From: a virus
DNA length: 21,579 nt
IMG/VR virus record: IMGVR_UViG_3300023119_000916
Location: 1 to 21,579 of that record
Direction: 5' to 3' (one strand)
Shown here: positions 3,315 through 20,314 of the stretch, piece by piece
How the letters are laid out: each line of letters opens with the position of its first letter
How positions within the stretch are numbered: position 1 is the stretch's first letter
Made by a program: the position numbers and the translations under genes
The notes under the pieces: generated by a model
The model's input: the letters and a program-made list of their open reading frames with translations, nothing else
Databases searched by the model: none
What the model was told of the DNA's origin: nothing

Positions 3315-3327
3315 ACTAATAATTATG

Positions 3328-6071: not shown

Positions 6072-6076
6072 ATACA

Positions 6077-6084
6077 TATTTATC
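6077..6084 (-). promoter_or_regulatory. T4-type late promoter of gp14-gp15
   Basis: GATAAATA on the minus strand, one base off the T4 late consensus TATAAATA. Five bases separate it from the gp14 ATG at 6071. It abuts an identical plus-strand octamer. Confidence 0.75.
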
Positions 6085-6092
6085 GATAAATA
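6085..6092 (+). promoter_or_regulatory. T4-type late promoter of gp13
   Basis: GATAAATA on the plus strand, 21 bases before the gp13 ATG at 6114. In contrast to its mirror image, it leaves room for a leader that carries a GGAG ribosome binding site at 6099-6102. Confidence 0.75.
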
Positions 6093-6113
6093 CAATACGG
6101 AGAAGATATCATT

Positions 6114-6872
6114 ATGGCAGACTTAACAACACAAAAACAGGAAGTATTTGATTACGTTAACGCAATGCTCGGCGGTGGCATGATTGACGTTGAGCTTGAT
6201 CCAGTACATTATCAAACAGCATTAAATAAAGCACTTTCTAAATTTCGACAGCGTTCGGATAATTCTGTAGAAGAAAGTTATTTGTTTATGCCAACTGTTG
6301 AAGATCAAAACACTTATACCTTACCAAATGAAGTTGTTGAAGTTCGTCAAATATTCCGTAGATCAATTGGATCACGCAGCGGTGGAGGAGATGGCGGCAC
6401 ATTGTTTGAGCCGTTTAATTTAGCATATACAAATACATATTTGTTATCAAGTTCTAATATTGGCGGTCTAGCAACATATGACCTTTTTAGTCAATATCAA
6501 GAACTTGTCGGACGTATGTTTGGTAGTTTTATTGAATTTAAATGGAATACTACAAACAAACAATTAACGTTACTACAACGTCCTAGAACTGAAGAAACTC
6601 TTATGCTTTATGCATATAACTACCGTCCAGATAGTGAACTATTAAATGATTATCTTGCGCAGCAGTGGATTAAAGATTATACTTTAGCAACGTGTAAGTA
6701 TATGCTAGGCGAAGCAAGAAGTAAGTTTGCTACTATTGCAGGCCCACAAGGCGGTTCAACACTTAATGGTGATGCACTAAAAAATGAAGCTATGCAGGAA
6801 ATAGAAAAACTTGAAAAAGATGTTCAAGAAGCTGTTTCTGGCGGCGCAGGATACGGCTTCACCATTGGTTAA
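6114..6872 (+). CDS. 13: Neck protein (T4 gp13-like)
   Basis: Predicted to form, with gp14, the connector between portal and tail after packaging. The 252-residue protein starts MADLTTQKQEVFDYVNAMLG and continues with an acidic segment VELDPVHYQTALNKALSKFRQ, then YTLPNEVVEVRQIFRR, and later YRPDSELLNDYLAQQWIKDY and a helical end rich in Glu and Lys (NEAMQEIEKLEKDVQEAV). This pattern is what I recall for gp13 of cyanophages and related marine myoviruses; T4 gp13 is a little longer (309). The divergent location next to gp14 supports the identification. It has its own late promoter (6085-6092) and a Shine-Dalgarno sequence. Confidence 0.78.
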   Translation: MADLTTQKQEVFDYVNAMLGGGMIDVELDPVHYQTALNKALSKFRQRSDNSVEESYLFMPTVEDQNTYTLPNEVVEVRQIFRRSIGSRSGGGDGGTLFEPFNLAYTNTYLLSSSNIGGLATYDLFSQYQELVGRMFGSFIEFKWNTTNKQLTLLQRPRTEETLMLYAYNYRPDSELLNDYLAQQWIKDYTLATCKYMLGEARSKFATIAGPQGGSTLNGDALKNEAMQEIEKLEKDVQEAVSGGAGYGFTIG

Positions 6873-6892
6873 TGTTAACGCTATAATCTAAA

Positions 6893-6912
6893 CATACTGT
6901 AAATACAGTATG
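6893..6912. repeat. 20-bp near-perfect dyad overlapping the start of the 70-residue gene
   Basis: CATACTGTAAATACAGTATG is symmetrical except at the central base pair step. The ATG at 6910 is its last three bases. A TATAAT box at 6882-6887 (weak -35 TTCACC at 6858-6863) would start transcription at about 6894, inside the dyad. The same bases also contain a late-promoter-like TGTAAATA (6898-6905) four bases before the ATG. It could be an operator or a start-codon hairpin. It shares ATACTGTAAA with the dyad at 7141-7158. Confidence 0.55.
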
Positions 6913-7122
6913 ACATACTTTCAACACAAAGAAGCAAATCGTTTGTACTGGATGGTTAAAGGTCACCTTATCCCAAAATCATGGAGCGAAAAAGATATTG
7001 AAAAAACATATGATTCCTACATGGCTAGATTATGGGGTAATTGTGAACGAGCTGAGTATAGCACACTTGGTTTTGAAGCCGCCTGGGCACAACGACAAGC
7101 AAAAAAATTAAAAAATACTTGA
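6910..7122 (+). CDS. Small uncharacterised protein, 70 residues
   Basis: I do not recognise a family. The protein is soluble-looking, aromatic and basic (many Trp, Tyr, Lys, Arg), begins MTYFQHKEANRLYWMVKG and ends WAQRQAKKLKNT. There is no signal peptide, membrane segment or cysteine motif. Its ATG is embedded in a 20-bp dyad with TATAAT and TGTAAATA elements in front, and there is no clear Shine-Dalgarno sequence, so it may be read from a leaderless or near-leaderless message. Its last codons overlap the TTGACA box of the next gene's promoter. It sits in an accessory patch (6910-8006) between gp13 and the tail sheath. Protein-like composition, tight spacing and a dedicated upstream element support a real gene. 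Confidence 0.6.
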   Translation: MTYFQHKEANRLYWMVKGHLIPKSWSEKDIEKTYDSYMARLWGNCERAEYSTLGFEAAWAQRQAKKLKNT

Positions 7123-7147
7123 CAAAAACGCAATTATTCTATATACT
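7119..7147 (+). promoter_or_regulatory. Near-consensus sigma70 promoter of the kinase-like gene
   Basis: A perfect TTGACA (7119-7124) and TATACT (7142-7147) are separated by exactly 17 bases. The predicted start is near 7154, giving a leader of about 27 bases with AAAGGA before the ATG at 7181. It indicates transcription by host-type holoenzyme, probably early, unlike the flanking late genes. Confidence 0.8.
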
Positions 7148-7158
7148 GTAAAGTATAT
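7141..7158. repeat. Dyad overlapping the -10 box (possible operator)
   Basis: ATATACT-GTAA-AGTATAT: seven-base arms around a four-base centre, covering the -10 box and the expected transcription start. It could be a repressor site or a 5' hairpin. The left half and centre (ATACTGTAAA, 7143-7152) repeat in the dyad at 6893-6912. Confidence 0.5.
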
Positions 7159-7180
7159 TGTGCAAAGGATAATTTAATTT

Positions 7181-7741
7181 ATGTTACCTAAACTACTTGT
7201 TGTTGGACACGGCAGGCATGGCAAAGATACCGTCTGTGAAATGCTAGAAAAATACGGCTATAGTTTTCAGTCTAGTTCTAAGTTCTGTTCAGAACTTTTT
7301 ATATTCAACGATTTAAAAGACAAGTACGGATACGCTAACGAAGAAGAGTGTTACGCAGATCGACACAATCATCGTACAGAGTGGTACAACATGATACACG
7401 ACTATTGTAAAGATGATTTGGCACGCCTTGGGCGTAACTTGTTTGCTCAAAATCAAATATACTGTGGACTACGTAACAAGCGTGAATTCTTTGCAATGCA
7501 AAACGAAGAAATTTTTGACTATGCTATTTGGGTAGATCGTACAGATCATTTACCAACTGAAGATCCTAGCTCAATGAGCATCGAACAGTGGATGTGCGAT
7601 TACACAATTGACAACAACGGCGATTTAAAACGATTAGAAAAGAATGTTGATGTACTAGTTCGTACTATCTTTAGAAATCGGGGACTAGGTCACCTTGCTT
7701 CCAACGCACCCCGTCCTTTTGAACTAGACGCTGACAATTAG
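7181..7741 (+). CDS. P-loop kinase, probably deoxynucleoside monophosphate kinase-like
   Basis: A 186-residue P-loop NTPase. The Walker A variant GHGRHGKDT (residues 9-17) is of the GxxxxGKD(S/T) kind seen in nucleoside/nucleotide kinases and phage dNMP kinases. The stretch DLARLGRNLFAQNQIYC, followed by LRNKREFFA, and the later IWVDRT are in keeping with that group. The role would be to phosphorylate dNMPs to feed phage DNA synthesis; the exact substrate cannot be told. It has its own near-consensus sigma70 promoter and an AAAGGA ribosome binding site, consistent with early expression although it sits among late genes. Its last 71 bases overlap the 3' end of the convergent HNH gene, so the C-terminus (LASNAPRPFELDADN) may have been reshaped by the arrival of that gene. 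Confidence 0.65.
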   Translation: MLPKLLVVGHGRHGKDTVCEMLEKYGYSFQSSSKFCSELFIFNDLKDKYGYANEEECYADRHNHRTEWYNMIHDYCKDDLARLGRNLFAQNQIYCGLRNKREFFAMQNEEIFDYAIWVDRTDHLPTEDPSSMSIEQWMCDYTIDNNGDLKRLEKNVDVLVRTIFRNRGLGHLASNAPRPFELDADN

Positions 7742-8006
7742 CACACACAGTTTTTAGATTGCTAGGTCGACAGTTTTCTAAATTTCCGTCAATATGAAAT
7801 ACATTAAACTGTTCTGGATGTCTTGACTGAAATCCGCATTTTTCGCAAGTATCTTTTTTTGTATATCCTGCTTGTTTCCATTTAGGTATTCCATTACCTA
7901 ACCCGTTGCGCAAACAACTTTCACAGAGTTTACGATAGTAAGTTTTGTTGCCTTTTTTATAATTTATAGCAGCAGGACGGTGTCCACATAAGCATAATGG
8001 TCTCAT
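7671..8006 (-). CDS. HNH/zinc-binding endonuclease-like protein
   Basis: A 111-residue protein with four cysteine pairs: CLC (5,7), CESC (28,31), CEKC (54,57) and CANC (88,91). The core FHIDGNLENCRPSNLKTVC has the HNH-type spacing His71-x-Asp73, an intermediate Asn, and Asn83-Leu84. It should therefore be a small HNH nuclease of the phage type, possibly a free-standing homing endonuclease; the target is unknown. It is the only minus-strand gene between 6085 and the right end, converges on the kinase gene with a 71-base overlap, and starts four bases after a GCTAAATA late-promoter-like octamer with no Shine-Dalgarno sequence. These traits suggest insertion as a mobile gene. The zinc and HNH motifs are clear; active homing is inference. 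Confidence 0.78.
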   Translation of the reverse strand: MRPLCLCGHRPAAINYKKGNKTYYRKLCESCLRNGLGNGIPKWKQAGYTKKDTCEKCGFQSRHPEQFNVFHIDGNLENCRPSNLKTVCANCQRLVQKDGVRWKQGDLVPDF

Positions 8007-8010
8007 ATTG

Positions 8011-8018
8011 TATTTAGC
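8011..8018 (-). promoter_or_regulatory. Late-promoter-like octamer of the HNH gene
   Basis: GCTAAATA on the minus strand, two mismatches from TATAAATA, four bases (CAAT) before the ATG at 8006. An identical octamer on the plus strand at 8074-8081 serves the tail sheath. Confidence 0.5.
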
Positions 8019-8073
8019 TCACCTTTTCGGTCCCTTTTTCTATGGCATAACTGCTATATTTTCTGATCCAAGT

Positions 8074-8081
8074 GCTAAATA
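8074..8081 (+). promoter_or_regulatory. Late-promoter-like octamer of the tail sheath gene
   Basis: GCTAAATA on the plus strand, followed by a 38-base leader with an AGGAG ribosome binding site (8107-8111) before the ATG at 8120. Weaker match than the other late promoters. Confidence 0.5.
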
Positions 8082-8119
8082 CATGTAACAGAATACCCAT
8101 CCAGATAGGAGAATATAAA

Positions 8120-11100
8120 ATGGCATTAGTATCACCAGGTGTACAGGTTAGCGTAGTAGATGAAAGTTTCTACACACCCGCTGAACCAGGTACAGTTCCA
8201 GTTATCTTCTGTGCAACGGCACAAGATAAAACAAATGCTTCGGGTTCAGGCACTGCGCCAGGCACACTAGCACAAAATGCTGGTAAGCCTTACTTAATGA
8301 CTTCGCAACGTGACCTGGCAGAAACATTTGGCGATCCAATTTTTCAAATTGACGCAAATAATAATCCAATTCACGGTAGTGAATTAAATGAATATGGTTT
8401 ACAAGCAGCATACTCATTTTTAGGAGTAAGTAACAGAGCTTGGGTTGTTAGAGCAGGAATTGACTTAGGATCATTAACACCAAGGTCATCTGTTCCAACA
8501 GCAGATCCAGAAGACGGAACATATTGGTTAGATACAGCTTCAACATTGTTTGGTATCCAAGAATGGAACAATGCGCCAATAGATATTAATGGCGGCCAGA
8601 CATTTACTAATAAGATTCCATTAGTAATCACTAACGCTGCTCAAACCGAAGACGCTTCAGATGATAACGGAACTGTTGTAAAACGTCCTTTAGCATCCAT
8701 TGGTGAAATTGGCGATTATGCAGTAGTTGCTGTTACTAACCTTAATACATTTTGGTATAGAGAATCCGGCGGTACTTGGGTTGAATTAGGTAGTGATGCG
8801 TGGCGTGATGCGTGGCCAGCAGTAACTGGTACTAAATCAGCAGCACCAGCAACAGGTAATTTTACAATTGATGGTTCTCCAGTTAGTTGGACAGGTGCAT
8901 CAACTATGACAGATGTTGCACAAGGAATTAATAGTACTATTCCTTTAGGTTTCCGTGCAGGAGTTGTTAACGGAAAAATTGCAATTTACACTGACGGTAC
9001 GGTAAGCGGACCTGATTCTTCATTAGCTGGTTCATTTAGCATTTCTGAAGCAGGTGGAACAACTACGCTTGATGCATTAGGTATTGAGAGCGGAACATAT
9101 CATGCACCAGCATTACAAATTAGTAGACATACTAGTGTTCCAGAATTTAAAGACACTGATACTTACAATAGACCTACTGGTAGTATTTGGATTAAAACAA
9201 CTACACCAAATGCAGGCGCACGTTGGAGAGTAAAGCAGTGGAACGATAACACAAGATTATGGGAAGACATTGAAGCACCTATCTATGATACTGCACAAGA
9301 TGCATTAGTACAATTAGATAGAACAGGCGGCGGTGAAAATTTAACTATTGGTGATTTATTCATTAATAGTAACGTTGCACAAGACGAACTTCCATTAGGT
9401 ACTTTTAAAATTATGCGCAGAGCAGCAGTTGGTTCAACTGCCGTAAGAACTGCAAAAATTACCGATGGAAAATTTGGTAACGGAACTGTTTACAATTTCC
9501 AAATTGAAGCAACAGCACCTGGAGATGCTAATTTCTCATCCCCAGTATATGTACAATTTACTGGTTCCGGTGACGGCGCAACAGACGCTATTGCTATAGC
9601 CGGAGCAATTACAAACGCAGGAGTTTCATATGTAAGTGCTGATGTAGATAGTGCAGACAGAGTTATTATTAAACATTCAAAAGGCGGCGAGATGCGTTTA
9701 ACAGACGGTCAAGGTGCATTTGCATGTTTTGTTTTATTTGGATTATCAGCGTTTGATGTAGATGATGCAACTACAACACAATTTTTAATAGACGAGCCTG
9801 GTGTTGATAACAGTTCAGGAACTTTGCAATTTAGAGCAAGTAACTGGTTACCACTAGTATATACACCAAGTGCAACACCATTAACACAAGCTGCACAAGA
9901 CGGAACATTATGGTATAACTCAATTGTCGACGAAGTTGATATTATGATTAACGATGGCGAAAAATGGGTTGGTTATCATAACTTTAATGCAGATTATCAA
10001 GACTGTGATCCAGCAGGACCAATTGTTCGTGCAACACAGCCTACTAAACAAACTGATAGTTCAGAACTAGTTGACGGTGATCTTTGGATTGATACTAGTG
10101 ATTTAGAAAACTATCCAGTAATTTATCGTTACAGAAAACTTACTGACAAGTGGGAATTAATTGATAACGGTGATCAAACAACTGAAAACGGTATTGTGTT
10201 TGCAGATGCACGTTGGGGAACTAGCGGAGCAAATGGAAATACTCAAGCTGACATTGTAGATTTGTTAACAGAAAACTATGTTGATTTTGATTGCCCAGAT
10301 CCAGACTTATTTCCAAAAGGAATGATGCTGTTTAATACTCGTCGTTCAGGATTTAATGTTAAGCGTTATGTATCAGACTATGTTGATAGTGGCGCACAAA
10401 ACATTAGAATGAACAACGAAGAACAAGCTAACTACGGTGATGCATCTACTGGTGTATATGATCGTTGGGTTACTGAATCAGCTAACCAAGTTGACGGCTC
10501 AGGTAGTTTTGGACGTAAAGCACAACGTAAAGTTATTTTACAAGCAATGCAAGCAGTTATCAATAATAACGACGATGTACGTGACGATGAATCACGCATC
10601 TTTAACTTGATATCAGCACCAGCATATCCAGAACTAATTGGCGAACTAATTAATCTAAACTACGATAGAGGTTTAACTGGTTTTGTTGTTGGAGATAGTC
10701 CTGCAAGATTAACACCAGATGCAACTTCATTAAACGAATGGGCAACAAACGCTCGCTCAGTAGTTGAAGATAATGACGACGGCTTAGTAAGTAGAGATGA
10801 ATACTTGGCAATGTTTTATCCATGGGGCTTTACAAGTGACAACGTAGGTAACAATATTGTTGTTCCGCCAAGTCACATGATGCTAAGAACTATTGCATTA
10901 AGTGATCAAGTTAGCTATCCATGGTTTGCACCAGCAGGTACAAGACGTGGCGGTGTAACTAATGCAAGCTCAACAGGGTTTATTACTAGCGAAGGTGAGT
11001 TTTCAAGTGTTGCACTAAATGAAGGTCAACGTGATACATTATACTCACAAGGCGTAAATCCAATTACATTTATTACTGGTGCAGGTCTTGTTAACTTTGG

Positions 11101-11452
11101 ACAGAAAACTCGAGCAAGAGGTACAAGTTCTCTAGATAGAATTAACGTAGCACGTTTAGTAATTTACTTACGTAGCCAGTTAAATCAATTAGCTAAACCT
11201 TATATCTTTGAACCAAACGATAAAATTACACGTGATGAGATCAAAGGTCAAACTGAGAGCTTGTTATTAGAACTTGTAGGACAGAGAGCACTTTATGACT
11301 TCTTAGTTGTATGTGACGAAACCAACAACACTCCTGCAAGAGTTGATCGTAATGAACTATATGTTGATATTGCGATTGAACCTGTTAAGAGTATTGAGTT
11401 CATCTATATTCCACTACGTTTGAAAAACACCGGTGAAATAGCAGGACTTTAA
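8120..11452 (+). CDS. 18: Contractile tail sheath protein (T4 gp18-like), greatly enlarged
   Basis: The polymerising sheath subunit of the contractile tail. The N-terminus MALVSPGVQVSVVDESFY and the C-terminal 230 residues (from about NARSVVEDNDDGLVSRDEY through YPWFAPAGTRRGGV, GVNPITFITGAGLVNFGQKT, RGTSSLDRINVARLVIYL, and IYIPLRLKN near the end) are typical of the gp18 family. The length is about 1110 residues against 659 in T4. The excess lies in the middle, where a Gly/Trp module recurs at least four times around Trp136, Trp357, Trp598 and Trp656 (DGTYWLDT, TGSIWIKT, DGTLWYNS, DGDLWIDT), each followed by a second Trp in a W-x-x-I/Y-like end. I start it at the ATG after AGGAG; the upstream GTG at 8072 overlaps the promoter octamer and adds an unlikely leader. 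Confidence 0.9.
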   Translation: MALVSPGVQVSVVDESFYTPAEPGTVPVIFCATAQDKTNASGSGTAPGTLAQNAGKPYLMTSQRDLAETFGDPIFQIDANNNPIHGSELNEYGLQAAYSFLGVSNRAWVVRAGIDLGSLTPRSSVPTADPEDGTYWLDTASTLFGIQEWNNAPIDINGGQTFTNKIPLVITNAAQTEDASDDNGTVVKRPLASIGEIGDYAVVAVTNLNTFWYRESGGTWVELGSDAWRDAWPAVTGTKSAAPATGNFTIDGSPVSWTGASTMTDVAQGINSTIPLGFRAGVVNGKIAIYTDGTVSGPDSSLAGSFSISEAGGTTTLDALGIESGTYHAPALQISRHTSVPEFKDTDTYNRPTGSIWIKTTTPNAGARWRVKQWNDNTRLWEDIEAPIYDTAQDALVQLDRTGGGENLTIGDLFINSNVAQDELPLGTFKIMRRAAVGSTAVRTAKITDGKFGNGTVYNFQIEATAPGDANFSSPVYVQFTGSGDGATDAIAIAGAITNAGVSYVSADVDSADRVIIKHSKGGEMRLTDGQGAFACFVLFGLSAFDVDDATTTQFLIDEPGVDNSSGTLQFRASNWLPLVYTPSATPLTQAAQDGTLWYNSIVDEVDIMINDGEKWVGYHNFNADYQDCDPAGPIVRATQPTKQTDSSELVDGDLWIDTSDLENYPVIYRYRKLTDKWELIDNGDQTTENGIVFADARWGTSGANGNTQADIVDLLTENYVDFDCPDPDLFPKGMMLFNTRRSGFNVKRYVSDYVDSGAQNIRMNNEEQANYGDASTGVYDRWVTESANQVDGSGSFGRKAQRKVILQAMQAVINNNDDVRDDESRIFNLISAPAYPELIGELINLNYDRGLTGFVVGDSPARLTPDATSLNEWATNARSVVEDNDDGLVSRDEYLAMFYPWGFTSDNVGNNIVVPPSHMMLRTIALSDQVSYPWFAPAGTRRGGVTNASSTGFITSEGEFSSVALNEGQRDTLYSQGVNPITFITGAGLVNFGQKTRARGTSSLDRINVARLVIYLRSQLNQLAKPYIFEPNDKITRDEIKGQTESLLLELVGQRALYDFLVVCDETNNTPARVDRNELYVDIAIEPVKSIEFIYIPLRLKNTGEIAGL

Positions 11453-11455
11453 TAT

Positions 11456-11463
11456 GATAAATA
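11456..11463 (+). promoter_or_regulatory. T4-type late promoter of the tail tube gene
   Basis: GATAAATA, starting three bases after the sheath stop codon and 23 bases before the tube ATG. The leader carries AGGAG at 11474-11478, eight bases from the ATG. A separate promoter fits the need for large amounts of tube protein. Confidence 0.75.
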
Positions 11464-11486
11464 CTATTGAATTAGGAGCAATATAA

Positions 11487-12113
11487 ATGGCAATTTCAAC
11501 ACTATCAAAAATTTCAGTACCGTTAGCTGGCGGAGATTCTGCAAGTAACCAAGGTTTGTTGATGCCGAAGCTCCAGTATCGCTTTAGAGTGTCGCTGGAA
11601 AACTTTGGTGTTTCAACACCGACTACTGAACTTACCAAGCAGGTAATTGATGTTACTCGACCAACGGTTGCATTTGAGCCAATGGAGATCCATGCGTACA
11701 ACTCAAAAGCATACTTAGCAGGTAAGCACACATGGTCACCGATTACATTGAACTTACGTGAAGATGTAAACAATGCTGTACAGAAACTAGTTGGCGAACA
11801 GTTACAGAAACAGTTTGACTTCTTTGAACAGTCAAGTGCAGCATCAGGACAAGATTATAAATTTACAACTAGAATTGAAATCTTAGACGGTGGTAATGGT
11901 GTACATACACCAAATGTTTTAGAAACATTTGAACTATATGGTTGTTTTGTAACAAATGCTAACTATAATACTTTAGCATATCAAAACAATGAGCCAGTAT
12001 CAGTTACATTAGAAATCCAATACGATAACGCTATCCAAACACCTACAGATACAGGAATTGGCACAGCAGTTGGACGTACAATTGGAAGTCTAATTACTGG
12101 CGGCGGCGCTTAA
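11487..12113 (+). CDS. 19: Tail tube protein (T4 gp19-like)
   Basis: The major subunit of the inner tail tube. The 208-residue protein has the layout of the gp19 family: an N-terminal strand region (MPKLQYRFRVSLENFG), a segment QVIDVTRPTVAFEPMEIHAY leading to the conserved loop KAYLAGKHTWSPITLNLRED, and a C-terminal part with TFELYGCFVTNANYNTLAYQ and VSVTLEIQYDNAIQT. T4 gp19 (163 residues) has the matching INVAGDRTFDDWTVTVMND and GLWPTNVGELQLDW elements. It directly follows the sheath gene, as in T4, has its own late promoter and strong ribosome binding site, and is followed by an intrinsic terminator, so it is probably an independently and highly expressed unit. A Gly-rich C-terminal tail (LITGGGA) is extra. 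Confidence 0.88.
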   Translation: MAISTLSKISVPLAGGDSASNQGLLMPKLQYRFRVSLENFGVSTPTTELTKQVIDVTRPTVAFEPMEIHAYNSKAYLAGKHTWSPITLNLREDVNNAVQKLVGEQLQKQFDFFEQSSAASGQDYKFTTRIEILDGGNGVHTPNVLETFELYGCFVTNANYNTLAYQNNEPVSVTLEIQYDNAIQTPTDTGIGTAVGRTIGSLITGGGA

Positions 12114-12133
12114 AAGTTAATTTAAACTTTGAT

Positions 12134-12162
12134 AAAAAGGGAGCAACATTGCTCCCTTTTTT
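12134..12162 (+). terminator. Intrinsic terminator after the tail tube gene
   Basis: AAAAAGGGAGCA, a four-base ACAT loop, and TGCTCCCTTTTT form a 12-bp stem (seven G/C-containing core pairs) running into a T tract. It ends the sheath/tube unit just before the next late promoter. Confidence 0.9.
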
Positions 12163-12187
12163 ATTATCTGCGTACATAATAGATATG

Positions 12188-12195
12188 GATAAATA
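12188..12195 (+). promoter_or_regulatory. T4-type late promoter with start codon five bases downstream
   Basis: GATAAATA followed by TTAGT and the ATG at 12201. No Shine-Dalgarno sequence fits between them, and transcription should begin at or beside the ATG. Confidence 0.75.
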
Positions 12196-12200
12196 TTAGT

Positions 12201-13508
12201 ATGGCAGCAACATCAAATGGATTCTTAGATAATTTAGTAAATGGGCTTTTAGGACCTAAAGGCACAATGGCAGACTGGCAACACGCTAGTCGTCTTTATG
12301 TTGACGGCAATTTAAAACTTGCTCCAAAATCAAAATTTCTATATCATACATATTTTCAATTAGATCCAATTGTTAGGAGTATTTTACCAGAATTAAAAGA
12401 CAAGCATAATTTAGAAATAGGCATGCTTGTAAAGTCTGCAGACTTGCCTAGATTTACAGCAAATGTTGAAACACGTAACAAGTATAATAGAAAAAAGAAT
12501 ATACAAACTGCTATACAGTATGAACCTATAACTATTACATTCCACGATGATAACTATGGTGTAACTACTGCATTGTTAGAAGCATATTATAGATACTATT
12601 ATGCTGACGCAGGTTATGGACGTATGCCAGGAGCATTTAATAAAGCTGGTTCAGGTGATAATACATACAAAGGTGCTGGAGCCAATCAATACAAGTTTGG
12701 TTTAGATAATAATATTTCAGTACCATTTTTTCAAAATATACAAATTAGCCAATTAGCTAGAAGAACTTATACTACATATACTTTAGTAAATCCAATTATT
12801 ACAAATTGGAATCATGATTCAGTTGATAACTCAGACGCAGCTACGCCTATGCAAAATACTATAACAGTAGCATATGAAGCAGTACATTATTCTAGAGGAC
12901 CAAGTGACGGCAATAATCCTGAACAACCAGGACCAACTGGATTTGGAGAACCAGAACATTACGATAGACAACCCTCGCCTATCTCATTATTAGGCGGAGG
13001 TGTGTTAAGTTTAGAAAGTGCATTTGGTGCAGGCGCAGACTTAGCCGACTTTATATCGAAAGGTCAAGGGTTTAGTAGTCCATTAGAAGCAGGACTTGCA
13101 GCATTTCAATTAATACGAGGTCTTGAAAATTTAACTTCGGAAGGTATAAGAGAAGAAGGTATAAATTTATTAGAAGATACATTAGGTGATATTGCAGGCA
13201 CTAATGTTAGTGGTGTAGCAAATACAATTATACCTAAAAATAATGGCACAGGCGGTACAGCAAGTTTAACTACTGGTACTAGTATAAACACTTCTACATC
13301 ATCTAATTCTGTAGTTGCTACATCAACAACTAAACAACTACTTATAGATAATCCAGTAGCCCTTGAAGATGCAGCAAAAGATCTTTTCAAAAATGATTTT
13401 TTAACTGGAGGCGGCACTGGAGGTGTTAATGGTATTAATTCTGCTTGGAATGGATTACCAGATGGCACTAAACAACTTTATAGAGACAGGGCGTTAGATA
13501 TAGCATGA
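12201..13508 (+). CDS. Probable tail tube/baseplate structural protein (gp19-like N-terminal domain)
   Basis: A 435-residue protein I do not recognise as a named T4 gene. Residues about 60-150 look like a tail-tube beta-barrel: LPELKDKHNLEIGMLVKSAD, then LPRFTANVETRNKYNRKKNI, and YEPITITFHDDNYGVTTALL. This matches the order found in gp19-fold proteins (hydrophobic strand, alpha-loop, 'ITITFHDD' strand). The rest is low complexity, rich in Gly, Asn, Thr and Ser, and ends in a helical segment. A tube-initiating or baseplate-tube adaptor (the T4 gp48/gp54 role) is plausible because the gene follows sheath and tube and precedes a fibre-like gene; a minor tube protein is the alternative. It is probably read from a leaderless late message and overlaps the next gene by ATGA. 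Confidence 0.5.
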   Translation: MAATSNGFLDNLVNGLLGPKGTMADWQHASRLYVDGNLKLAPKSKFLYHTYFQLDPIVRSILPELKDKHNLEIGMLVKSADLPRFTANVETRNKYNRKKNIQTAIQYEPITITFHDDNYGVTTALLEAYYRYYYADAGYGRMPGAFNKAGSGDNTYKGAGANQYKFGLDNNISVPFFQNIQISQLARRTYTTYTLVNPIITNWNHDSVDNSDAATPMQNTITVAYEAVHYSRGPSDGNNPEQPGPTGFGEPEHYDRQPSPISLLGGGVLSLESAFGAGADLADFISKGQGFSSPLEAGLAAFQLIRGLENLTSEGIREEGINLLEDTLGDIAGTNVSGVANTIIPKNNGTGGTASLTTGTSINTSTSSNSVVATSTTKQLLIDNPVALEDAAKDLFKNDFLTGGGTGGVNGINSAWNGLPDGTKQLYRDRALDIA

Positions 13509-13978
13509 GCAATAGTGGATTACCAGTAAAAAATATTTCTAAAAGAAGTGATGAAGATGTTCGTTACTTTTTTGATAGATATTATACAAAAACAATAAAC
13601 TTTAATGACAACGATCTAAATTCAGTAGTTGGCTTTTTTGAATCAAAAGGGTTTGATAAAAGTAGTGCAATTTCAGTAAGTGTTGTATTGCTCCAACAAG
13701 CAAAATTAGATAACATAAAAATTTTTAAACTACTTGACACATTAAAAGGATACAAAGATTTACAACTAAGTGCAGTAGTAGCAGAAGTCTTAAATTATAA
13801 TAGAAAGCGTACTAGCGCAGTAGGATTTAAAAGACAAAACACAGAAAATAGACTAGAAAAAAGAAATATAATTGAAGGATCCCCAGCACCTGTTATAATA
13901 AATAGTGAAGTTGAGAATAACTTTAGTGCAACTGGATTTACATTTGATTCTAGAACTATCACTTTGGACGGAGTATAA
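13505..13978 (+). CDS. Uncharacterised protein, probable virion/baseplate component
   Basis: The 157-residue product has no family I can name. Residues 15-100 look helical and regular (DEDVRYFFDRYYTKTINFND, then LNSVVGFFESKGFDKSSAIS, then KLLDTLKGYKDL), followed by a basic linker with many Arg/Asn and a C-terminal beta-like tail VIINSEVENNFSATGFTFDS. There are no membrane segments, signal peptide or cysteines. Start and stop overlap or abut both neighbours (ATGA with the tube-like gene, three bases to the fibre-like gene), so it belongs to the same late unit. By position it may be a chaperone or adaptor for the fibre or baseplate; that is inference only. Confidence 0.6.
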   Translation: MSNSGLPVKNISKRSDEDVRYFFDRYYTKTINFNDNDLNSVVGFFESKGFDKSSAISVSVVLLQQAKLDNIKIFKLLDTLKGYKDLQLSAVVAEVLNYNRKRTSAVGFKRQNTENRLEKRNIIEGSPAPVIINSEVENNFSATGFTFDSRTITLDGV

Positions 13979-13981
13979 CAT

Positions 13982-15439
13982 ATGGCAAAACAAATAGTTA
14001 ATAGAGGCGCAAACGCAAACGACGGTACAGGTGATAGCTTACGTGACGGCGCTGAGAAAATCAATGATAATTTTAATGAAATATATTCTGTATTAGGAGA
14101 TGGCGAAAATCTTCTTACTACTGATATTGATTTTGGTACTAATAAATTATTTTATTCTAACAAAGTTGATTCATTAAATGATTTAGCAGCAATTGATCCA
14201 TCAAAGTATCATGGCTTAATTGTACACGTTCATGCTACTGGAGCATTATATTATGCACACGCAGACGGCTGGAGAAAATTATTAACAGATAATTCTACTA
14301 CTATTGCTAACTATGTAGATTCATTAGATACAGTTGCGTATTCAGGAAATTATAACGATTTAAACAGTCGACCTGCAATACCATCACTAATTACTGATTT
14401 AGGAATTATTGACGGCAGTGCTGGACAAGTGTTAAGTACAGACGGTACTGGCAACTTTGTATTTAGAGATGTTGTTGCAACAAGTATTGCATTTAGCAAT
14501 GTAACAAATAAACCTACTACACTTTCAGGTTATGGTATTACTGATTCGTTTACTGGACGTTATGAAGATTTAACAAACTTACCAGTATTGTTTAGCGGAG
14601 AATATGCTGACCTAGCAAATAAGCCTACAATTCCTGTGGATATTGCAGATTTAACAGACAATAGTTTACTTTTATTTGATAAAGAATATTCTAGTCTAAA
14701 CGGTCGTCCACTTATTCCAAGTGATTTAAACCAATTAACAGACGATGACGGAAGATTGTTTAGTAGAGATTACAATGATCTAACTAATAAGCCAACATCA
14801 TTTAATCAATTAACTACACTACAGATGACACTTGGTGTCGAAGTAGACGAATTTAGTAATGATGGAGGATTAACTGACAATAGCGAAACAGCACTAGTTA
14901 CAGAACGTGCGGTTAGAACATATGTTGCTGCACAAATTCCTGATAGTTTAACAGACCTTAATATTGTAGACGGTAGTGCCGGACAAGTATTAACCACAAA
15001 TGGTGCTGGAGTATTTACATTCCAAGCTGCAGGCGATACTATTGGAAACTTTACTTTAAGTAATAGTGTTATTGACACAGATGACTCTAGTCCAATTAGC
15101 ATTACTCCAGCAGTGTTTGCACGAAGCGATCTTAGTGTTGATAACTCGTTAGTTGTTAGCAATGACGTTACTGTTGGCGGCAATTTAATAGTAAGCGGCG
15201 ATATTATTACTACATCAACAGGTACTCCTGAAATAATTTCAGAAAATGATATACATTTAACAGCAGCAACAAGAGTTGAAGTTACACAGTCGCCATTTAA
15301 ATTTGCAAGTTTTACAAACGCACAACGAGATGCATTAACAGCTGAAAACGGTGATATGATTTACAATACAGATAATAATAGGTTTGAAGCATATGTAAAT
15401 GGTGCTTGGGTAATTATTGATCATAGTCCAATTGTATAA
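13982..15439 (+). CDS. Fibre-like virion protein with repeated Y-x-DL-x-NKP modules
   Basis: A 485-residue structural protein. The N-terminus MAKQIVNRGANANDGTGDSL (then RDGAEKINDNFNEIYSVLG) is an attachment-type domain I associate with fibre and structural proteins of marine T4-like phages. Residues about 120-275 carry six imperfect repeats ending in the motif Y-x-(D/S)-L-x-(N/G)-(K/R)-P: YNDLNSRP (from 124), a divergent SNVTNKP, YEDLTNLP, YADLANKP, YSSLNGRP, YNDLTNKP (from 264). Two copies of GSAGQVL(S/T)T-(D/N)G-x-G-x-F flank the later region, and a C-terminal NGDMIYNTDNNRFEAYVNGA module closes the protein, resembling fibre tip domains. It lies immediately before the S8 protease gene. Role: probably a tail-fibre or collar-whisker type appendage; which appendage is not determined by the sequence. 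Confidence 0.7.
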   Translation: MAKQIVNRGANANDGTGDSLRDGAEKINDNFNEIYSVLGDGENLLTTDIDFGTNKLFYSNKVDSLNDLAAIDPSKYHGLIVHVHATGALYYAHADGWRKLLTDNSTTIANYVDSLDTVAYSGNYNDLNSRPAIPSLITDLGIIDGSAGQVLSTDGTGNFVFRDVVATSIAFSNVTNKPTTLSGYGITDSFTGRYEDLTNLPVLFSGEYADLANKPTIPVDIADLTDNSLLLFDKEYSSLNGRPLIPSDLNQLTDDDGRLFSRDYNDLTNKPTSFNQLTTLQMTLGVEVDEFSNDGGLTDNSETALVTERAVRTYVAAQIPDSLTDLNIVDGSAGQVLTTNGAGVFTFQAAGDTIGNFTLSNSVIDTDDSSPISITPAVFARSDLSVDNSLVVSNDVTVGGNLIVSGDIITTSTGTPEIISENDIHLTAATRVEVTQSPFKFASFTNAQRDALTAENGDMIYNTDNNRFEAYVNGAWVIIDHSPIV

Positions 15440-15447
15440 GGTGAGTC

Positions 15448-17505
15448 ATGGAAGAAAAATACTATATTATAAATGCAATATCTGAGGATGCGTTTGATAC
15501 AATACATGAATATCTTACTACTAGTACATCAGCAATTTCAAATGTTCCAAATAGAGAAGTTATTTGTGAAAATTACACTCTTCAAAGTCCTACAAGAGGA
15601 ACTTACTTACTAACAGACGAAGAAAAAGCAGACTTAGAGAATCGTCCTGAGATTGAATATATAAACCTTGATGTTGCAAAATATCCAGAGATGCAAATTC
15701 CTTCAGATCAATTACAATGCGATATTCCTCCAAAAAAAAATAGATATGCGAACAATATAAGAAATTATTTTTATTATTTTACAAATTATAACGGACTAGC
15801 AAATAATGATAACGGTGCTGCAACTAGTCAATTGTTGCGTATGCGACAAAAGGCACATCCTTGGGCAGGACAAGACAGAGCAGATGTTATTAATGATATT
15901 CCTACTCAAAGAGGAACAGGCAAAGGCGTTGATGTTATTGTAGGTGATAACGGGAGTTGGATAGGTCATCCTGAATTTATGAATGAAACATTTCATACAG
16001 GGTCGTTGAACAACGGCGAAGCAGGAATTGTTCCGCAAGATTTTATACCCGGTAATGTCTTAAGCAAACGTGATGGACGCGATGCACTTAATGCAACAGC
16101 ACCGTTATGTAATGTTTTAGATTTAGTTTTAGATGGTCCTTATTACATAGACCCTGATTATTTTAATGCTGACGCTGCTAATAGATTAGAAACACGTTGG
16201 GACGGAACTATTGTGCCAGTAGAAAGTGTTGCGAGATCTTGGTGGGGTAATGGATCAAATCGTTCAACGCAATTTGCAAACATAGGTACTGTAACAGTAA
16301 CAACAAATTATACTAGAAATACTGCACACGGATCTAATACTGTAGGTCCTGGCAACGGAACACACGGAACGCAGTGTGCAAGTTTAACATTTGGTAAAAC
16401 ACACGGTTGGGCATATAACGCAAATAAATGGGTTGTAGATGTGTATGGTACTGCATTTTTAGGTTTTGAACAATACTTTGACATAATGAAAATTTTCCAT
16501 CTTAATAAACCTATCAATTCAGAATATAATACACAAGATCCTACAATAAGCTCTAACAGTTGGGGATTTCGTGTAAGCACTAGGACTAGTGGCGAATCTA
16601 ATTATAGAGGTACTGATTATAACTTTACTACAAATAGTAATGCTACTAATAACTATCGTGTTATTAGAGAAAATGGCGACGGGCGTGTAAAGCACTATCC
16701 TAAACCTAACAGTTTGTTTACAGCAGGTAACGAAATGACCGAAGCTGGAGTGATTTTTGTAGCTGCCGCAGGTAACGATAGTCAACAACAAGTGTTACCT
16801 GATCATCCTAATTGGGATAACTTCCATTGGAATACAACAGGGGCTACTATCGATCAAACTAACCAGGTAGAATTAGGCGGTTACTTTAATGCTTTTGCTA
16901 GTGTAAATAGACCAGGATTTCCTCAATGTTTAGGCCCTACAAATGATAACAGATTTAGAACTATAAACATTGGTGCGTTAGACGACGATTGGGGCGAAGG
17001 CACTGCAATAGGTAGCCAAGACAACAAAGCATATTATAGTGACTGCGGACCGGCAGTTGATTGTTTTGCACCAGCTGACGGTACACTAGCGGCAGCTGCA
17101 CCTGGTGACGGAAGTGTTGAGACAAGATTTGATAATACATATACAGGACTAACAGCTGATGCTGGCACTGCTGATGACACATACTTTAATGGTACTTCGT
17201 CTGCATGTCCTGTTGCTTGCGGGTTTTTAGCAACAGTGTTAGAACATAACAGAGGCTGGATTTGGAGTGATGTTAAAGATTATATAAAAAATACAATCGA
17301 ACAACAGACTACAGCAACAATGTACATAGGTGATGATTATTCAGATCCTTATGATAGTGGTTGGTTGAATACTAAAAGTCTAGCAGGAGCAGATCCTATT
17401 GTGTTATACGAAGGTGAATATACAATAAGTAATAATGTTACGTTAAGACCACTTACTAGAGGTCCTTTAAATCTAAAGGGTGGAATTAAGATAAGGTTTA
17501 AGTAA
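15448..17505 (+). CDS. Subtilisin-like serine protease (family S8) in the structural cluster
   Basis: A 685-residue protein with all S8 catalytic elements in order: Asp167 in VIVGDNGSWIGHPEF, His306 in NGTHGTQCA, oxyanion Asn443 in VAAAGNDS, and nucleophile Ser584 in NGTSSACPVA. The motifs SNSWG and DCFAPADG also fit subtilases. Distances between catalytic residues (139, 137 and 141) are much longer than in subtilisin (32, 91, 66), so large insertions are present. Residues 1-145 are an N-terminal region without a signal peptide, possibly a propeptide or virion-docking domain. The last 40 residues (VLYEGEYTISNNVTLRPLTR and GGIKIRFK) look like a beta appendage. The ribosome binding site is AAGGTGAG before the ATG. 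Following a fibre gene, it may cleave virion or host-surface proteins; a role in particle maturation is the alternative. Confidence 0.88.
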   Translation: MEEKYYIINAISEDAFDTIHEYLTTSTSAISNVPNREVICENYTLQSPTRGTYLLTDEEKADLENRPEIEYINLDVAKYPEMQIPSDQLQCDIPPKKNRYANNIRNYFYYFTNYNGLANNDNGAATSQLLRMRQKAHPWAGQDRADVINDIPTQRGTGKGVDVIVGDNGSWIGHPEFMNETFHTGSLNNGEAGIVPQDFIPGNVLSKRDGRDALNATAPLCNVLDLVLDGPYYIDPDYFNADAANRLETRWDGTIVPVESVARSWWGNGSNRSTQFANIGTVTVTTNYTRNTAHGSNTVGPGNGTHGTQCASLTFGKTHGWAYNANKWVVDVYGTAFLGFEQYFDIMKIFHLNKPINSEYNTQDPTISSNSWGFRVSTRTSGESNYRGTDYNFTTNSNATNNYRVIRENGDGRVKHYPKPNSLFTAGNEMTEAGVIFVAAAGNDSQQQVLPDHPNWDNFHWNTTGATIDQTNQVELGGYFNAFASVNRPGFPQCLGPTNDNRFRTINIGALDDDWGEGTAIGSQDNKAYYSDCGPAVDCFAPADGTLAAAAPGDGSVETRFDNTYTGLTADAGTADDTYFNGTSSACPVACGFLATVLEHNRGWIWSDVKDYIKNTIEQQTTATMYIGDDYSDPYDSGWLNTKSLAGADPIVLYEGEYTISNNVTLRPLTRGPLNLKGGIKIRFK

Positions 17506-17509
17506 TGTT

Positions 17510-17947
17510 ATGTCAAGATTTGCTCAAGGAAAATTTACTCTCAAAAACCCAAACAAATACGTAGGCGGAAAAACACCAACATATAGATCAAGTTGGGAAT
17601 TTGCTTTTATGAGATTTTGTGACGAACATCCTAGTGTAAATCAGTGGGCAAGCGAAGCTATTAAAATTCCTTATAGAAATCCACTTAGCGGAAAATATAC
17701 AATATATGTGCCAGACTTTTTTATCGCATATGCAGACAAAGGCGGAAAGCAACGTGTAGAAGTAATTGAAGTTAAGCCTGCTAACCAAACAGTTAAAGAA
17801 AAGTTAGGTAGATCAAGAGCTAATCAATTGCACTATGTAGTTAATCAAGCAAAGTGGGGTGCAGCAAGAGCATGGTGTAAACAAAAAGGAATTGTATTTA
17901 GAATTGTAAACGAGGGCGACATTTTTCATCAAGGTCGCCGAAGATGA
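17510..17947 (+). CDS. 4: Head completion protein, PD-(D/E)xK nuclease fold (T4 gp4-like)
   Basis: Needed in T4 to finish filled heads so tails can join; the family has a restriction-endonuclease-like fold. The 145-residue protein aligns well with T4 gp4 from memory: GKFTLKNPNKYVG, then YRSSWEFAFMRFCDEHPSV, then IPYRNPLSGKYTIYVPDF, later KWGAARAWCKQKG. Candidate catalytic residues are Glu30, Asp69 (VPDF) and Glu87-x-Lys89 (IEVKP), a complete PD-(D/E)xK set. The length equals T4 gp4 (150). The ATG at 17510 follows the protease stop by four bases; there is only a weak AAGG upstream, so translation is likely coupled. Its stop overlaps the sulfotransferase ATG (ATGA). Confidence 0.88.
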   Translation: MSRFAQGKFTLKNPNKYVGGKTPTYRSSWEFAFMRFCDEHPSVNQWASEAIKIPYRNPLSGKYTIYVPDFFIAYADKGGKQRVEVIEVKPANQTVKEKLGRSRANQLHYVVNQAKWGAARAWCKQKGIVFRIVNEGDIFHQGRRR

Positions 17948-18573
17948 ATATAACATTTTATGATAGCACAAATCATCCTTGGACATTTTTACACGTTCCT
18001 AAAACAGCTGGAAAAAGCATTAGTGCTTATATAATGCAACATAGTAAAAATGCTAAAACATTACACCCTACAAGTCATGCAACATTAAATGAAATGCAAG
18101 AGTTAAATGTAGACTTAGGTACAACATTTGCAGTATTTAGAAATCCTTATGCTCGTGCAGTAAGTTTATACAGATATTTGTTTGAAGTTGATATTAGAGA
18201 AATGTCAATTGCGCATGCCAATTATTTTCATAAAACACCTGAATATGATTGGCACGATAATTTAAGAAAAGAATACAAAAATATAACATTTTTAGAATTT
18301 TGTAAAATATTACCTTGGTTTCCTTTAGGTATAGAACAATCTAATTATTGGCCAGTAGATAACCCTTTAAAAATGGAAACTTTATTAACTGACTTTAAAC
18401 TAATACAAAATAAATTAGAAACAGATGATCCTCTTTATAAATTTAATTCTACAGGACTACATAATTGGAAATCATACTATAACGAAGAATCACAATTAGA
18501 AATATATAATACATATAAAAAAGACTTTGAGTTATTAGGGTATTCGAAAGATATAAATAATAGTAGCATATAA
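17944..18573 (+). CDS. Sulfotransferase family protein (auxiliary gene)
   Basis: A 209-residue protein with the two PAPS-binding signatures of the Golgi-type/bacterial sulfotransferase superfamily: the 5'-phosphosulfate loop HVPKTAGKSI (PKTAGKS 19-25) and the 3'-phosphate segment VFRNPYARAVSLYRY (RNPYARAVS 66-74). It would transfer sulfate from PAPS to an alcohol or amine acceptor, often a surface sugar; the acceptor is unknown. Its ATG overlaps the gp4 stop by four bases, so it is translated with a morphogenesis gene despite not being one. The gp16 late promoter lies inside its last codons. Together with the ADP-heptose cassette it suggests this phage changes surface glycans of the host or of its own virion. 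Family call is firm, role is inference. Confidence 0.8.
   Translation: MNITFYDSTNHPWTFLHVPKTAGKSISAYIMQHSKNAKTLHPTSHATLNEMQELNVDLGTTFAVFRNPYARAVSLYRYLFEVDIREMSIAHANYFHKTPEYDWHDNLRKEYKNITFLEFCKILPWFPLGIEQSNYWPVDNPLKMETLLTDFKLIQNKLETDDPLYKFNSTGLHNWKSYYNEESQLEIYNTYKKDFELLGYSKDINNSSI
18552..18559 (+). promoter_or_regulatory. T4-type late promoter of gp16 (perfect consensus)
   Basis: TATAAATA, identical to the T4 late consensus, lies within the end of the sulfotransferase gene, 26 bases before the gp16 ATG at 18586. Confidence 0.75.
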
Positions 18574-18585
18574 TGGTATAGGACT

Positions 18586-19092
18586 ATGACCAAAAAATTA
18601 GAAGAATTATTAAATTTGCCAGATGCAAAAGAAATTGTAAACGAAGCAAAGGCAGAAGATAAAAAAACAAAAAAAGAAACTGCTATTGTTGAGATAGCTG
18701 AAACTAAACGCGATATAGAAGAACTTGATAAGATTGCATCAGCTCTTCCTGCTGTTAAAGGTCTTGGCGAAATGGCCGACAACGAGCTTAATGATATTGC
18801 TTCGCGAGCATTAGAGGCATACGAAGATCTAATGGATTTAGGTATGAATGTAGAAAGCCGTTACAGCGGTAGAGTTTTTGAAGTTGCAGGCGGCATGTTA
18901 AAAACATCATTAGATGCTAAAGTTGCAAAAATGGATAAAAAACTAAAGATGATTGAGTTGCAACTTAAAAAAGAAAAAATGGACAAAGACAACAAGCCCG
19001 GAGGCGATGGCATGATTGAAGGTGAAGGATATGTTGTCACTGACAGAAATAGTCTGTTAGAAAGACTAAAAGGCTTAGATAAAGATAAATAA
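18586..19092 (+). CDS. 16: Small terminase subunit (T4 gp16-like)
   Basis: Recognises phage DNA and regulates the gp17 packaging motor. The 168-residue protein (T4 gp16: 164) begins KKLEELLNLPDAKEIVNEA, contains a central helical region (ELNDIASRALEAYEDLMDLG and VFEVAGGMLKTSLDAKVAKM) that should form the oligomerising coiled-coil hairpin, and ends with VVTDRNSLLERLKGLDKDK, comparable to the FVGSPTELMDEI end of T4 gp16. It is Lys- and Glu-rich with no cysteines. Context is supportive: a consensus late promoter, then gp16, two small genes and gp17. In T4 the two terminase genes overlap; here two extra genes separate them. Confidence 0.8.
   Translation: MTKKLEELLNLPDAKEIVNEAKAEDKKTKKETAIVEIAETKRDIEELDKIASALPAVKGLGEMADNELNDIASRALEAYEDLMDLGMNVESRYSGRVFEVAGGMLKTSLDAKVAKMDKKLKMIELQLKKEKMDKDNKPGGDGMIEGEGYVVTDRNSLLERLKGLDKDK
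19084..19091 (+). promoter_or_regulatory. T4-type late promoter upstream of the capsid-targeting-like gene
   Basis: GATAAATA overlaps the gp16 stop codon region; 23 bases separate it from the ATG at 19115, with AGGA about 10 bases before that ATG. Confidence 0.65.
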
Positions 19093-19114
19093 CATATAAG
19101 CAGGATAAGTTAAT

Positions 19115-19615
19115 ATGAAAACATTTACAGATATTCTAACAGAATCAAAAAAAACATACAAGTTTCTTGTAAGGATAGCAGGACCTTGTGCTGAAGATAT
19201 TACTGAAAAACTTAAAACAAATTTAGAAAAGTTTAAAGTAGTTAACGTTTCAAGCCCAAAACGTGCTCCAATACAAGAAACACCAATGGATTTCCCACAA
19301 TTACAAAACATGGAAGTAACTACTTGGGAAGTAGAAGTTCAATATCCAACTACTAGAGATGTTTTACAAGAATACTTATATCAATGCTGCGGGGTAGCAC
19401 AAACCCATCTAAATGTTAGAGCAGACGGCGATCCTATTGAGGCTTATCAAAAACAAACAGAAGAAACACCATACGAAGCAATGTTAAACACTGAAGACAT
19501 GGGCGGCGAAAGCGCACAAGATGATGTTGGAGAAAATCGTGTTATGGGGCTTCTTAAAGAACTTGAAACTGCTCGCAAAGAACGTGATTTCGACGCAGTA
19601 GTAGTGGAGAAATAA
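19115..19615 (+). CDS. Small protein with capsid-targeting-like N-terminus, conserved in marine phages
   Basis: A 166-residue protein whose first ten residues, MKTFTDILTE, closely resemble the T4 capsid targeting sequence MKTYQEFIAE of internal head proteins, which ends at a gp21 protease site of the (L/I)-x-E type. Here LTE-10 followed by Ser11 fits such a site. The rest has a compact alpha/beta look (YKFLVRIAGP, then ITEKLKTNLEKFKVVNVSSP, then PIQETPMDFPQLQNMEVTTW), and I recall similar 'MKTF...PIQETPxDFP' proteins in other marine phages, including podoviruses, without a known function. The C-terminus is acidic then helical (LLKELETARKERDFDAV). It lies between gp16 and gp17. A packaged or prohead-associated protein is the favoured inference. 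Confidence 0.7.
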   Translation: MKTFTDILTESKKTYKFLVRIAGPCAEDITEKLKTNLEKFKVVNVSSPKRAPIQETPMDFPQLQNMEVTTWEVEVQYPTTRDVLQEYLYQCCGVAQTHLNVRADGDPIEAYQKQTEETPYEAMLNTEDMGGESAQDDVGENRVMGLLKELETARKERDFDAVVVEK

Positions 19616-19617
19616 TT

Positions 19618-20253
19618 ATGGACATGAAAACAATATTACAAAACATGGATGCAGCAGCAGCTGGCGAAAAGCCATCAGCAGGTGCTAAAAATGTTAATGA
19701 TATGAAGTCAATTTTAGAAGCCATCAAATCAGTTGAAGAATGCGGTGACATGCCAATGATGGCAAGTCAAGAAATGAATAAAGGCAATCCTGTAACAGTA
19801 AACATTACAGCTTCAGGAAAAGAAAATGTAAACGACTTAATGGATTTAATTAAATTAGCAGGCGGAAATACAGAACAGCATATTGACATGCCAATGGCAC
19901 ACGATGCTATGCATACAGATGTAGATTCACACAAAAGTCTTTCTATGTCAGATATGGCAAGACTGTTAAATGGAGAAGATGAAGAAGGCGAAGTTGAAGA
20001 GTGGGCTAACTCACCAGAAGATTCAGCAGGCGACGAAGATTATCAAGACCACAAACATATGACTCAAGATTTAAGCGGCGGCCTTAATAGAGCTAAGCCA
20101 AAAGGTTCAGAGCGTGTTAAAGATCCAGCAATCGAATCTATTAAAACTACTTTATGGGCAGCACTACAAGAAAAGAAAGCTACCGAAGGCAAATATAAAT
20201 CAGATGCACAGCGCAAAGCAGTACACGCATCAAAAAACGAAAAGAAAAATTAA
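19618..20253 (+). CDS. Polar virion-type protein, conserved in marine T4-like phages, function unknown
   Basis: A 211-residue hydrophilic protein. It starts MDMKTILQNMD and repeats a related element at NDMKSILEAIKS (28-39). Residues 40-105 hold Met/His/Asp-rich stretches (GDMPMMASQEMNKG and HIDMPMAHDAMHTD), 118-145 are strongly acidic (NGEDEEGEVEEWANSPEDSA), and the end is basic (KYKSDAQRKAVHASKNEKK). The segment DHKHMTQDLSGGLNRAKPKG followed by KDPAIE recalls a motif I know from hypothetical proteins of cyanophages. There is no transmembrane segment. Only two bases separate it from the preceding gene, and an intrinsic terminator follows. A prohead core or internal head protein is possible but unproven. 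The Met, His and acid clusters could bind metal. Confidence 0.6.
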   Translation: MDMKTILQNMDAAAAGEKPSAGAKNVNDMKSILEAIKSVEECGDMPMMASQEMNKGNPVTVNITASGKENVNDLMDLIKLAGGNTEQHIDMPMAHDAMHTDVDSHKSLSMSDMARLLNGEDEEGEVEEWANSPEDSAGDEDYQDHKHMTQDLSGGLNRAKPKGSERVKDPAIESIKTTLWAALQEKKATEGKYKSDAQRKAVHASKNEKKN

Positions 20254-20272
20254 ACTACGGTGGGGTCACGCC

Positions 20273-20300
20273 AAATAGGGCCTACGGGCCCTATTTTTTT
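20273..20300 (+). terminator. Intrinsic terminator before gp17
   Basis: AAATAGGGCC, loop TACG, GGCCCTATTT form a 10-bp stem followed by further T residues. It closes the gp16 unit just before the gp17 late promoter. Confidence 0.9.
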
Positions 20301-20301
20301 G

Positions 20302-20309
20302 AATAAATA
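20302..20309 (+). promoter_or_regulatory. T4-type late promoter of gp17 with start codon five bases downstream
   Basis: AATAAATA followed by TTTGT and the ATG at 20315. It begins right after the terminator T tract. No ribosome binding site fits between promoter and ATG. Confidence 0.75.
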
Positions 20310-20314
20310 TTTGT

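Follow-up and report, generated by a model that had tools for sequence, protein, structure and literature searches.

Late promoters joined to start codons

Among the uncultured T4-related phages of a large and mostly marine family, genes for virion assembly and DNA packaging are very probably transcribed from T4-type late promoters as genuinely leaderless mRNAs and translated without a Shine–Dalgarno (SD) sequence, in a general mode of expression that would include sigma-70 promoters and leave the abundant virion proteins SD-leadered. The window, that is, the whole stretch of DNA analyzed here, is a 21.6-kb virus record with T4-like synteny (gp15, gp14, gp13, gp18, gp19, a second tube-like gene, and gp17). 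Its nearest isolates, Phosso, PA5oct, and Atu_ph07 (compared via gp14, gp17, and gp19), are distant, and its related IMG/VR contigs number in the hundreds, the largest reaching 275 kb. Homologues of gp55 are encoded by the relatives G001, G002, and G013; none is found in the 21.6-kb fragment itself, which is too short to show one. An earlier note on this DNA had described four places where a late-promoter octamer is followed by an ATG after only four or five bases, and all four are where it had placed them, three with a spacer of five bases (N5) and one, at the HNH gene, with four (N4):

6069–6084, minus strand: gp14 promoter and start; late octamer GATAAATA (6084–6077), TGTAT, ATG at 6071; N5
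4962–6071, minus strand: gp14-like virion protein, predicted leaderless (PHROG_11591, E 2e-85)
8004–8018, minus strand: HNH gene promoter and start; variant octamer GCTAAATA (8018–8011), CAAT, ATG at 8006; N4
7671–8006, minus strand: HNH endonuclease-like gene, predicted leaderless (PHROG HNH endonuclease, E 2e-5)
12188–12203, plus strand: 12201 gene promoter and start; late octamer GATAAATA (12188–12195), TTAGT, ATG; N5
12201–13508, plus strand: 12201 gene, second tail-tube-like protein, predicted leaderless (PHROG tail tube families, E 3e-18)
20302–20317, plus strand: gp17 promoter and start; late octamer AATAAATA (20302–20309), TTTGT, ATG at 20315; N5
20315–21577, plus strand: gp17 terminase large subunit, predicted leaderless (PHROG terminase large subunit, E 3.5e-105); 3′ end beyond the window

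The octamer of the HNH gene departs from the consensus at −12, and the 12201 product is a candidate tube initiator or baseplate-tube protein. Five further genes have late promoters that are separated from the start codon by a leader:

6085–6113, plus strand: gp13 promoter and SD-bearing leader; divergent late octamer GATAAATA (6085–6092); N21
8074–8119, plus strand: gp18 sheath promoter and leader; variant octamer GCTAAATA (8074–8081), 38-nt spacer with AGGAG, ATG at 8120
11456–11486, plus strand: gp19 tube promoter and SD-bearing leader; late octamer GATAAATA; N23
18552–18585, plus strand: promoter and leader of orf18586 (small-terminase-like); late octamer TATAAATA, 26-nt spacer
19084–19114, plus strand: promoter and leader of orf19115; late octamer, 23-nt spacer

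The octamers of gp14 and gp13 adjoin divergently and form a perfect 16-bp palindrome (TATTTATC/GATAAATA, 6077–6092), at which gp14 would be leaderless and gp13 SD-leadered and the two promoters should compete; a similar abutting layout is also seen in several relatives. Amid the virion genes lies an ORF for a large subtilisin-like (S8-type) protease, judged by sequence only (15448–17505), of a kind that few relatives have. Metagenome-assembled genomes that hold contigs of the phage group (L477–L487) are labelled Halorubrum, Pelagibacter, Rickettsiales, Neomarinimicrobiota, and others; the contigs are probably misbinned phage DNA, and as labels this mixed are uninformative on the host, deducing it from genome bins was dropped.

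Spacing statistics and conservation

The heptamer ATAAATA as such is no commoner in the window than chance predicts (8 occurrences versus 14 expected), but seven of the eight stand 5–26 nt before a gene start, within octamers resembling TATAAATA. Three sites have the arrangement ATAAATA-N5-ATG (those of gp14, the 12201 gene, and gp17) versus 0.34 expected, a count reached in none of 100 dinucleotide shuffles. When the distance from ATAAATA to an ATG opening an ORF of at least 60 aa was scored across the window and 80 related loci, its distribution was bimodal, with 96 sites at N5, 5 at N4, and 3 at N6, a second hump at N14–N36 (centre about N18–26), and very few sites at N0–3 and N6–13. Twenty permuted heptamers scored 0–14 at N4–6. 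Three large contigs of 200–275 kb had 6, 8, and 5 sites at N5, versus 0.2–0.4 for permuted motifs.

After dereplication of the orthologues (a minimum of 9 differences over 90 nt), each gene kept mainly to one spacing class. N5 was found in 42/53 gp14 and 54/71 12201 orthologues; for gp17, scored with TAAATA, 46 of 76 had N5 and 13 had N4; and the HNH gene was mostly N4 (50/65, with 13/65 at N5). Leadered genes retained long spacings: N16–26 for gp13, N29–48 for gp18, N15–27 for gp19, N15–30 for orf19115, and mostly N23–27 for orf18586. In a search that favoured ATG where several starts lay close together, the start codon was ATG in 71/71 orthologues of the 12201 gene, 52/53 of gp14, 76/76 of gp17, and 65/65 of the HNH gene. 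A wrongly assigned start codon could be ruled out for gp14, as alignments with its distant homologues in Phosso and PA5oct begin at residue 1; for gp17, alignments with homologues begin at residues 3–10. Distant homologues of the 12201 product align only from residue 42, so its start rests on close relatives.

The start codon as predicted transcription start

In a review of T4 transcription the first base of the late octamer is numbered −13 (PMC2988020), and the gp55 structure has recognized bases or pockets at −12, −9, and −8 (PMC7892883). With the octamer spanning −13 to −6 in this published T4 numbering, five further bases reach −1, and N5 therefore puts the A of ATG at the predicted +1, as it does for the 12201 gene; the placement of the AUG at or beside +1 in the earlier note thus agrees with promoter geometry. 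A pyrimidine is present at −1 in 36 of 37 N5 sites, with A at +1. Where a late promoter is followed by a leader, whether in T4, in pelagiphages, or at the leader genes of this lineage, T and A are likewise favoured at positions 5 and 6 after the octamer. This preference, in which no start codon is involved, is consistent with initiation six bases past the octamer. A −10 promoter element lies ∼10 bp before the start codon, and the first 30 nt of the N5 mRNAs are predicted to be weakly structured (mean −0.9 versus −2.2 kcal/mol further in). The N4 sites of the HNH gene and the N8 sites of some gp14 orthologues do not fit an exact +1; the choice of transcription start can shift by one base. At nearly all N4 sites a C stands right behind the octamer (TAAATAC-NNT-ATG; G011 at 176962 and 250117, G012 at 39792, 153684, and 212898, and the HNH gene), which suggests that the start register depends on that base.

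Shine–Dalgarno sites and exchanged leaders

An SD motif was found at the start of only 2% of gp14 and 3% of gp17 orthologues, as opposed to 96–100% for gp13, gp18, and gp19, and at 2 of 37 N5 sites versus 109 of 125 sites of the leader class. Both the missing SD at the fused starts and the leaders with SD sites at gp13, gp18, and gp19, as described earlier, are thus features of the orthologues too. At the N5 genes, the octamer fills the SD position. The 12201 and HNH genes scored 31% and 38%, values that probably stem from AG or GAG adjoining the octamer on its 5′ side, which would lie upstream of any transcript from that promoter.

Leadered and leaderless forms replace each other among orthologues. 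Several 12201 genes read GATAAATATTAGT-AAGGAGAGTTCG-ATG instead of GATAAATATTAGT-ATG, that is, promoter and +1 A are retained and a 12-nt SD leader is inserted before the ATG. In PA5oct and Phosso, gp14 has the octamer followed by an SD leader. The leadered gp14 orthologues L384, L387, L394, and L398 read AGGAGA-ATGGTTATCCCT; in these, the usual ATG-Pro-Arg has become ATC-Pro-Arg, and a new ATG is found six bases upstream, right behind the SD. A third, unexplained start type is seen at orf18586, the conserved leader of which (ATAGTAGCA..TAATGG; 18552–18585) lacks an SD in most orthologues and contains an internal upstream AUG, in some cases yielding a two-codon ORF.

Upstream terminators

Two sites in the window resemble intrinsic terminators and lie directly upstream of fused promoters:

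12134–12161, plus strand: T-tailed hairpin in the stretch from gp19 to the 12201 promoter; strongest terminator-like site in 3300–21579
20273–20296, plus strand: hairpin adjoining the gp17 promoter upstream; among the two strongest sites in the scanned 18 kb

A terminator-like site precedes 52/57 leaderless-type orthologues of the 12201 gene and 48/64 of gp17; the same scan found 1–3 per about 55 for gp13, gp18, and gp19. For gp14 and the HNH gene, no conserved upstream terminator was found among the orthologues, which makes transcripts reading in from further upstream possible there.

Sigma-70 promoters with the same geometry

In the lineage of the window, the spacing between TATAAT and ATG peaks at N6, which in sigma-70 geometry corresponds to about +1. 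When a −35 element was required as well (at most one mismatch in twelve bases), 19 promoters had N6, versus 3 with N5 and 4 with N7. One of them is in the window:

2850–2887, minus strand: sigma-70-type promoter of an RfaE-like gene; TTGACT-N17-TATAAT-TGTAGT-ATG, ATG (2852) at the predicted +1

Its homologues in G002 and G005 (N6) and G004 (N5) share this geometry. For the RfaE-like gene, an ORF finder picks another ATG further upstream, in overlap with the −10 box.

The peak of near-consensus sigma-70 promoters at N6 indicates that leaderless expression is a general mode and not a property of a late virion class. Of the two classes of late mRNA that had been proposed earlier, the separate SD-leadered late set stands, but the other class reaches beyond virion genes, to the HNH gene and, in relatives, to genes for a 2OG oxygenase and a sugar-nucleotide adenylyltransferase, and its framing by late promoters was too narrow.

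Distribution in other phages

T4-type late promoters depend on gp55/gp33/gp45 (T4, TATAAATA; marine cyanophages, NATAAATA). The lineage of the window shares with them the octamer core, the absence of a −35 element, gp55 homologues in relatives, and the placement before head and tail genes. It differs in that a large fraction of its octamers is fused to ATG and that the −13 base is often G. T4 has no sites at N4–6 and 25 at N13–30, and cyanophages, Phosso, and PA5oct are similar; at N5, the counts were 0 for T4, Syn9, and Phosso, 1 each for S-PM2 and P-SSM2, and 2 for PA5oct.

An N5 class is, however, common to the window lineage and T4-like phages of Pelagibacter and OM43. With ORFs of at least 60 aa, HTVC008M had 9 sites at N5 and none at N4 or N6, Mosig had 6 at N5, and Melnitz 3; in the first 50 kb of HTVC008M, all seven N5 ATGs are GenBank CDS starts. 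The genome-wide comparison of spacings with controls that the earlier note had proposed thus came out in favour of the N5 class, both in the large relatives and in these three isolates. The positive group had 37 N5 sites to 104 leadered ones, and the remaining phages had 4 to 127 (Fisher p = 3e-8, an optimistic value since orthologues from different genomes were treated as independent). The three phages are distant from that of the window, and as gp17 of HTVC008M is only about 35% identical and N5 stands at mostly different genes, the feature may have two origins or may follow the biology of the hosts. An alphaproteobacterial host as the sole cause was discarded, because Cr30, phiM12, and Phosso have no leaderless class.

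The ribosomal protein bS21 is located near the anti-SD on the ribosome. It is phage-encoded in G011 (181784–182044) and G012 (121228–121476) and also in HTVC008M, Mosig, Melnitz, PA5oct, and Phosso; as the latter two have no N5 class, bS21 is not diagnostic of leaderless genes.

Proposed mechanism and alternative explanations

From the geometry of the promoter and its −10 element, we infer where the 5′ ends actually lie. The gp55-dependent T4-type late promoters would stand at such a distance that transcription begins with the A of the ATG; the mRNAs of gp14, gp17, and the tube-like 12201 gene would then be leaderless, as would that of the HNH gene, with its register one base shorter. The 5′-terminal AUG would then be recognized together with fMet-tRNA, typically by 70S ribosomes, without SD pairing. 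Sigma-70 promoters would share this +1-AUG architecture, making it a general mode for genes in modest demand that are insulated or come first on their strand, with SD leaders kept by the most abundant virion proteins. Translation route and level of output are parts of this explanation that we infer as well.

An AT-rich genome will place some octamers near ATGs, and ATAAATA is, as mentioned, not over-represented in the window; still, the exact peak at N5, the permuted-motif controls, the conservation among orthologues, and the lack of an N5 peak in the equally AT-rich T4 and PA5oct make chance a practically negligible explanation. Scarcely more credible is that octamer-N5 acts at these genes not as a promoter but as an A/T-rich enhancer of translation initiation. 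In some bacteria, A-rich upstream elements do take the place of an SD. However, the identical octamer also stands 14–40 nt upstream of SD-led starts, which suits a promoter and not a start-codon signal, it is retained in swap orthologues when a leader is inserted, and sigma-70 promoters with a −35 element have matching geometry. The octamer might also be a promoter the +1-AUG RNA of which is incidental, the protein being made from longer transcripts of upstream promoters. Short intergenic distances speak for this possibility; the 12201 gene and gp17 lie behind insulating terminators, though, gp14 and the HNH gene come first after a strand switch, and with the octamer in place of the SD, initiation would have to be SD-less anyway, so that we regard it as very unlikely.

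Genome compaction is compatible with (near-)leaderless mRNAs and competes only over their meaning: they would result purely from the tight packing of genes, as is evident from the adjoining gp14 and gp13 octamers, with no functional design of two classes. By itself, compaction would neither produce the nearly empty ranges at N0–3 and N6–13 nor leave the abundant virion proteins leadered, and we consider it unlikely as the full account. At the other extreme stands a deliberate two-channel programme in some marine T4-superfamily phages, in which low-demand essential genes would be obligately leaderless under both sigma-70 and gp55, abundant virion genes SD-led, the balance tunable, for example, via bS21, and the register selected to the single base; this we can propose only tentatively, and doubt it more than we believe it.

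The earlier suggestion of a low output for proteins needed in few copies fits only in part. In the window lineage sheath and tube keep SD leaders, and in the pelagiphages checked, the genes for major capsid, sheath, and portal have SD sites, as has the tube gene of Mosig; leaderless genes thus avoid the most abundant proteins. In contrast, leaders are also present at gp13 and at the small-terminase-like orf18586, the T4 counterparts of which are not known to be abundant. Low demand may therefore be necessary, yet not sufficient, for the leaderless state.

Relation to known leaderless mRNAs and implications

Leaderless mRNAs are widespread in Actinobacteria, Deinococcus, and archaea, and lambda cI is a phage example; to our knowledge, those of phages are mainly known as such single cases. 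The lineage of the window resembles the known leaderless mRNAs in its −10 element ∼10 bp before the ATG and in lacking an SD, and differs in using a phage-encoded late sigma system, in comprising several essential virion genes, and in the alternation of leadered and leaderless forms among orthologues. A TA-like signal about 10–12 bp before the start codon has been reported for leaderless mRNAs (PMC3160421). A paper on phage AR9 calls phage transcripts “often leaderless” and gives leaders of 26–491 nt for AR9 itself, and one study reported that the prediction of late promoters failed in pelagimyophages (PMC7029224). A search of the open-licence literature yielded no account of late mRNAs without leaders for T4-like phages; subscription journals may contain one. 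Nor was leaderlessness found for HTVC008M, Mosig, or Melnitz in the papers searched, where the word “leaderless” in the Melnitz paper derives from the gene-finder cited.

In a widespread group of marine phages, genes essential for assembly and packaging thus appear to be obligately leaderless, with a register that is precise to a single base, and the leaderless and SD modes interchange among orthologues. The hosts of these phages should translate 5′-terminal AUGs well, and HTVC008M on Pelagibacter offers a testable system for the split between SD and leaderless translation during infection. In practice, the promoter–ATG register helps in annotating marine T4-like phages, for gene starts as well as for late promoters.
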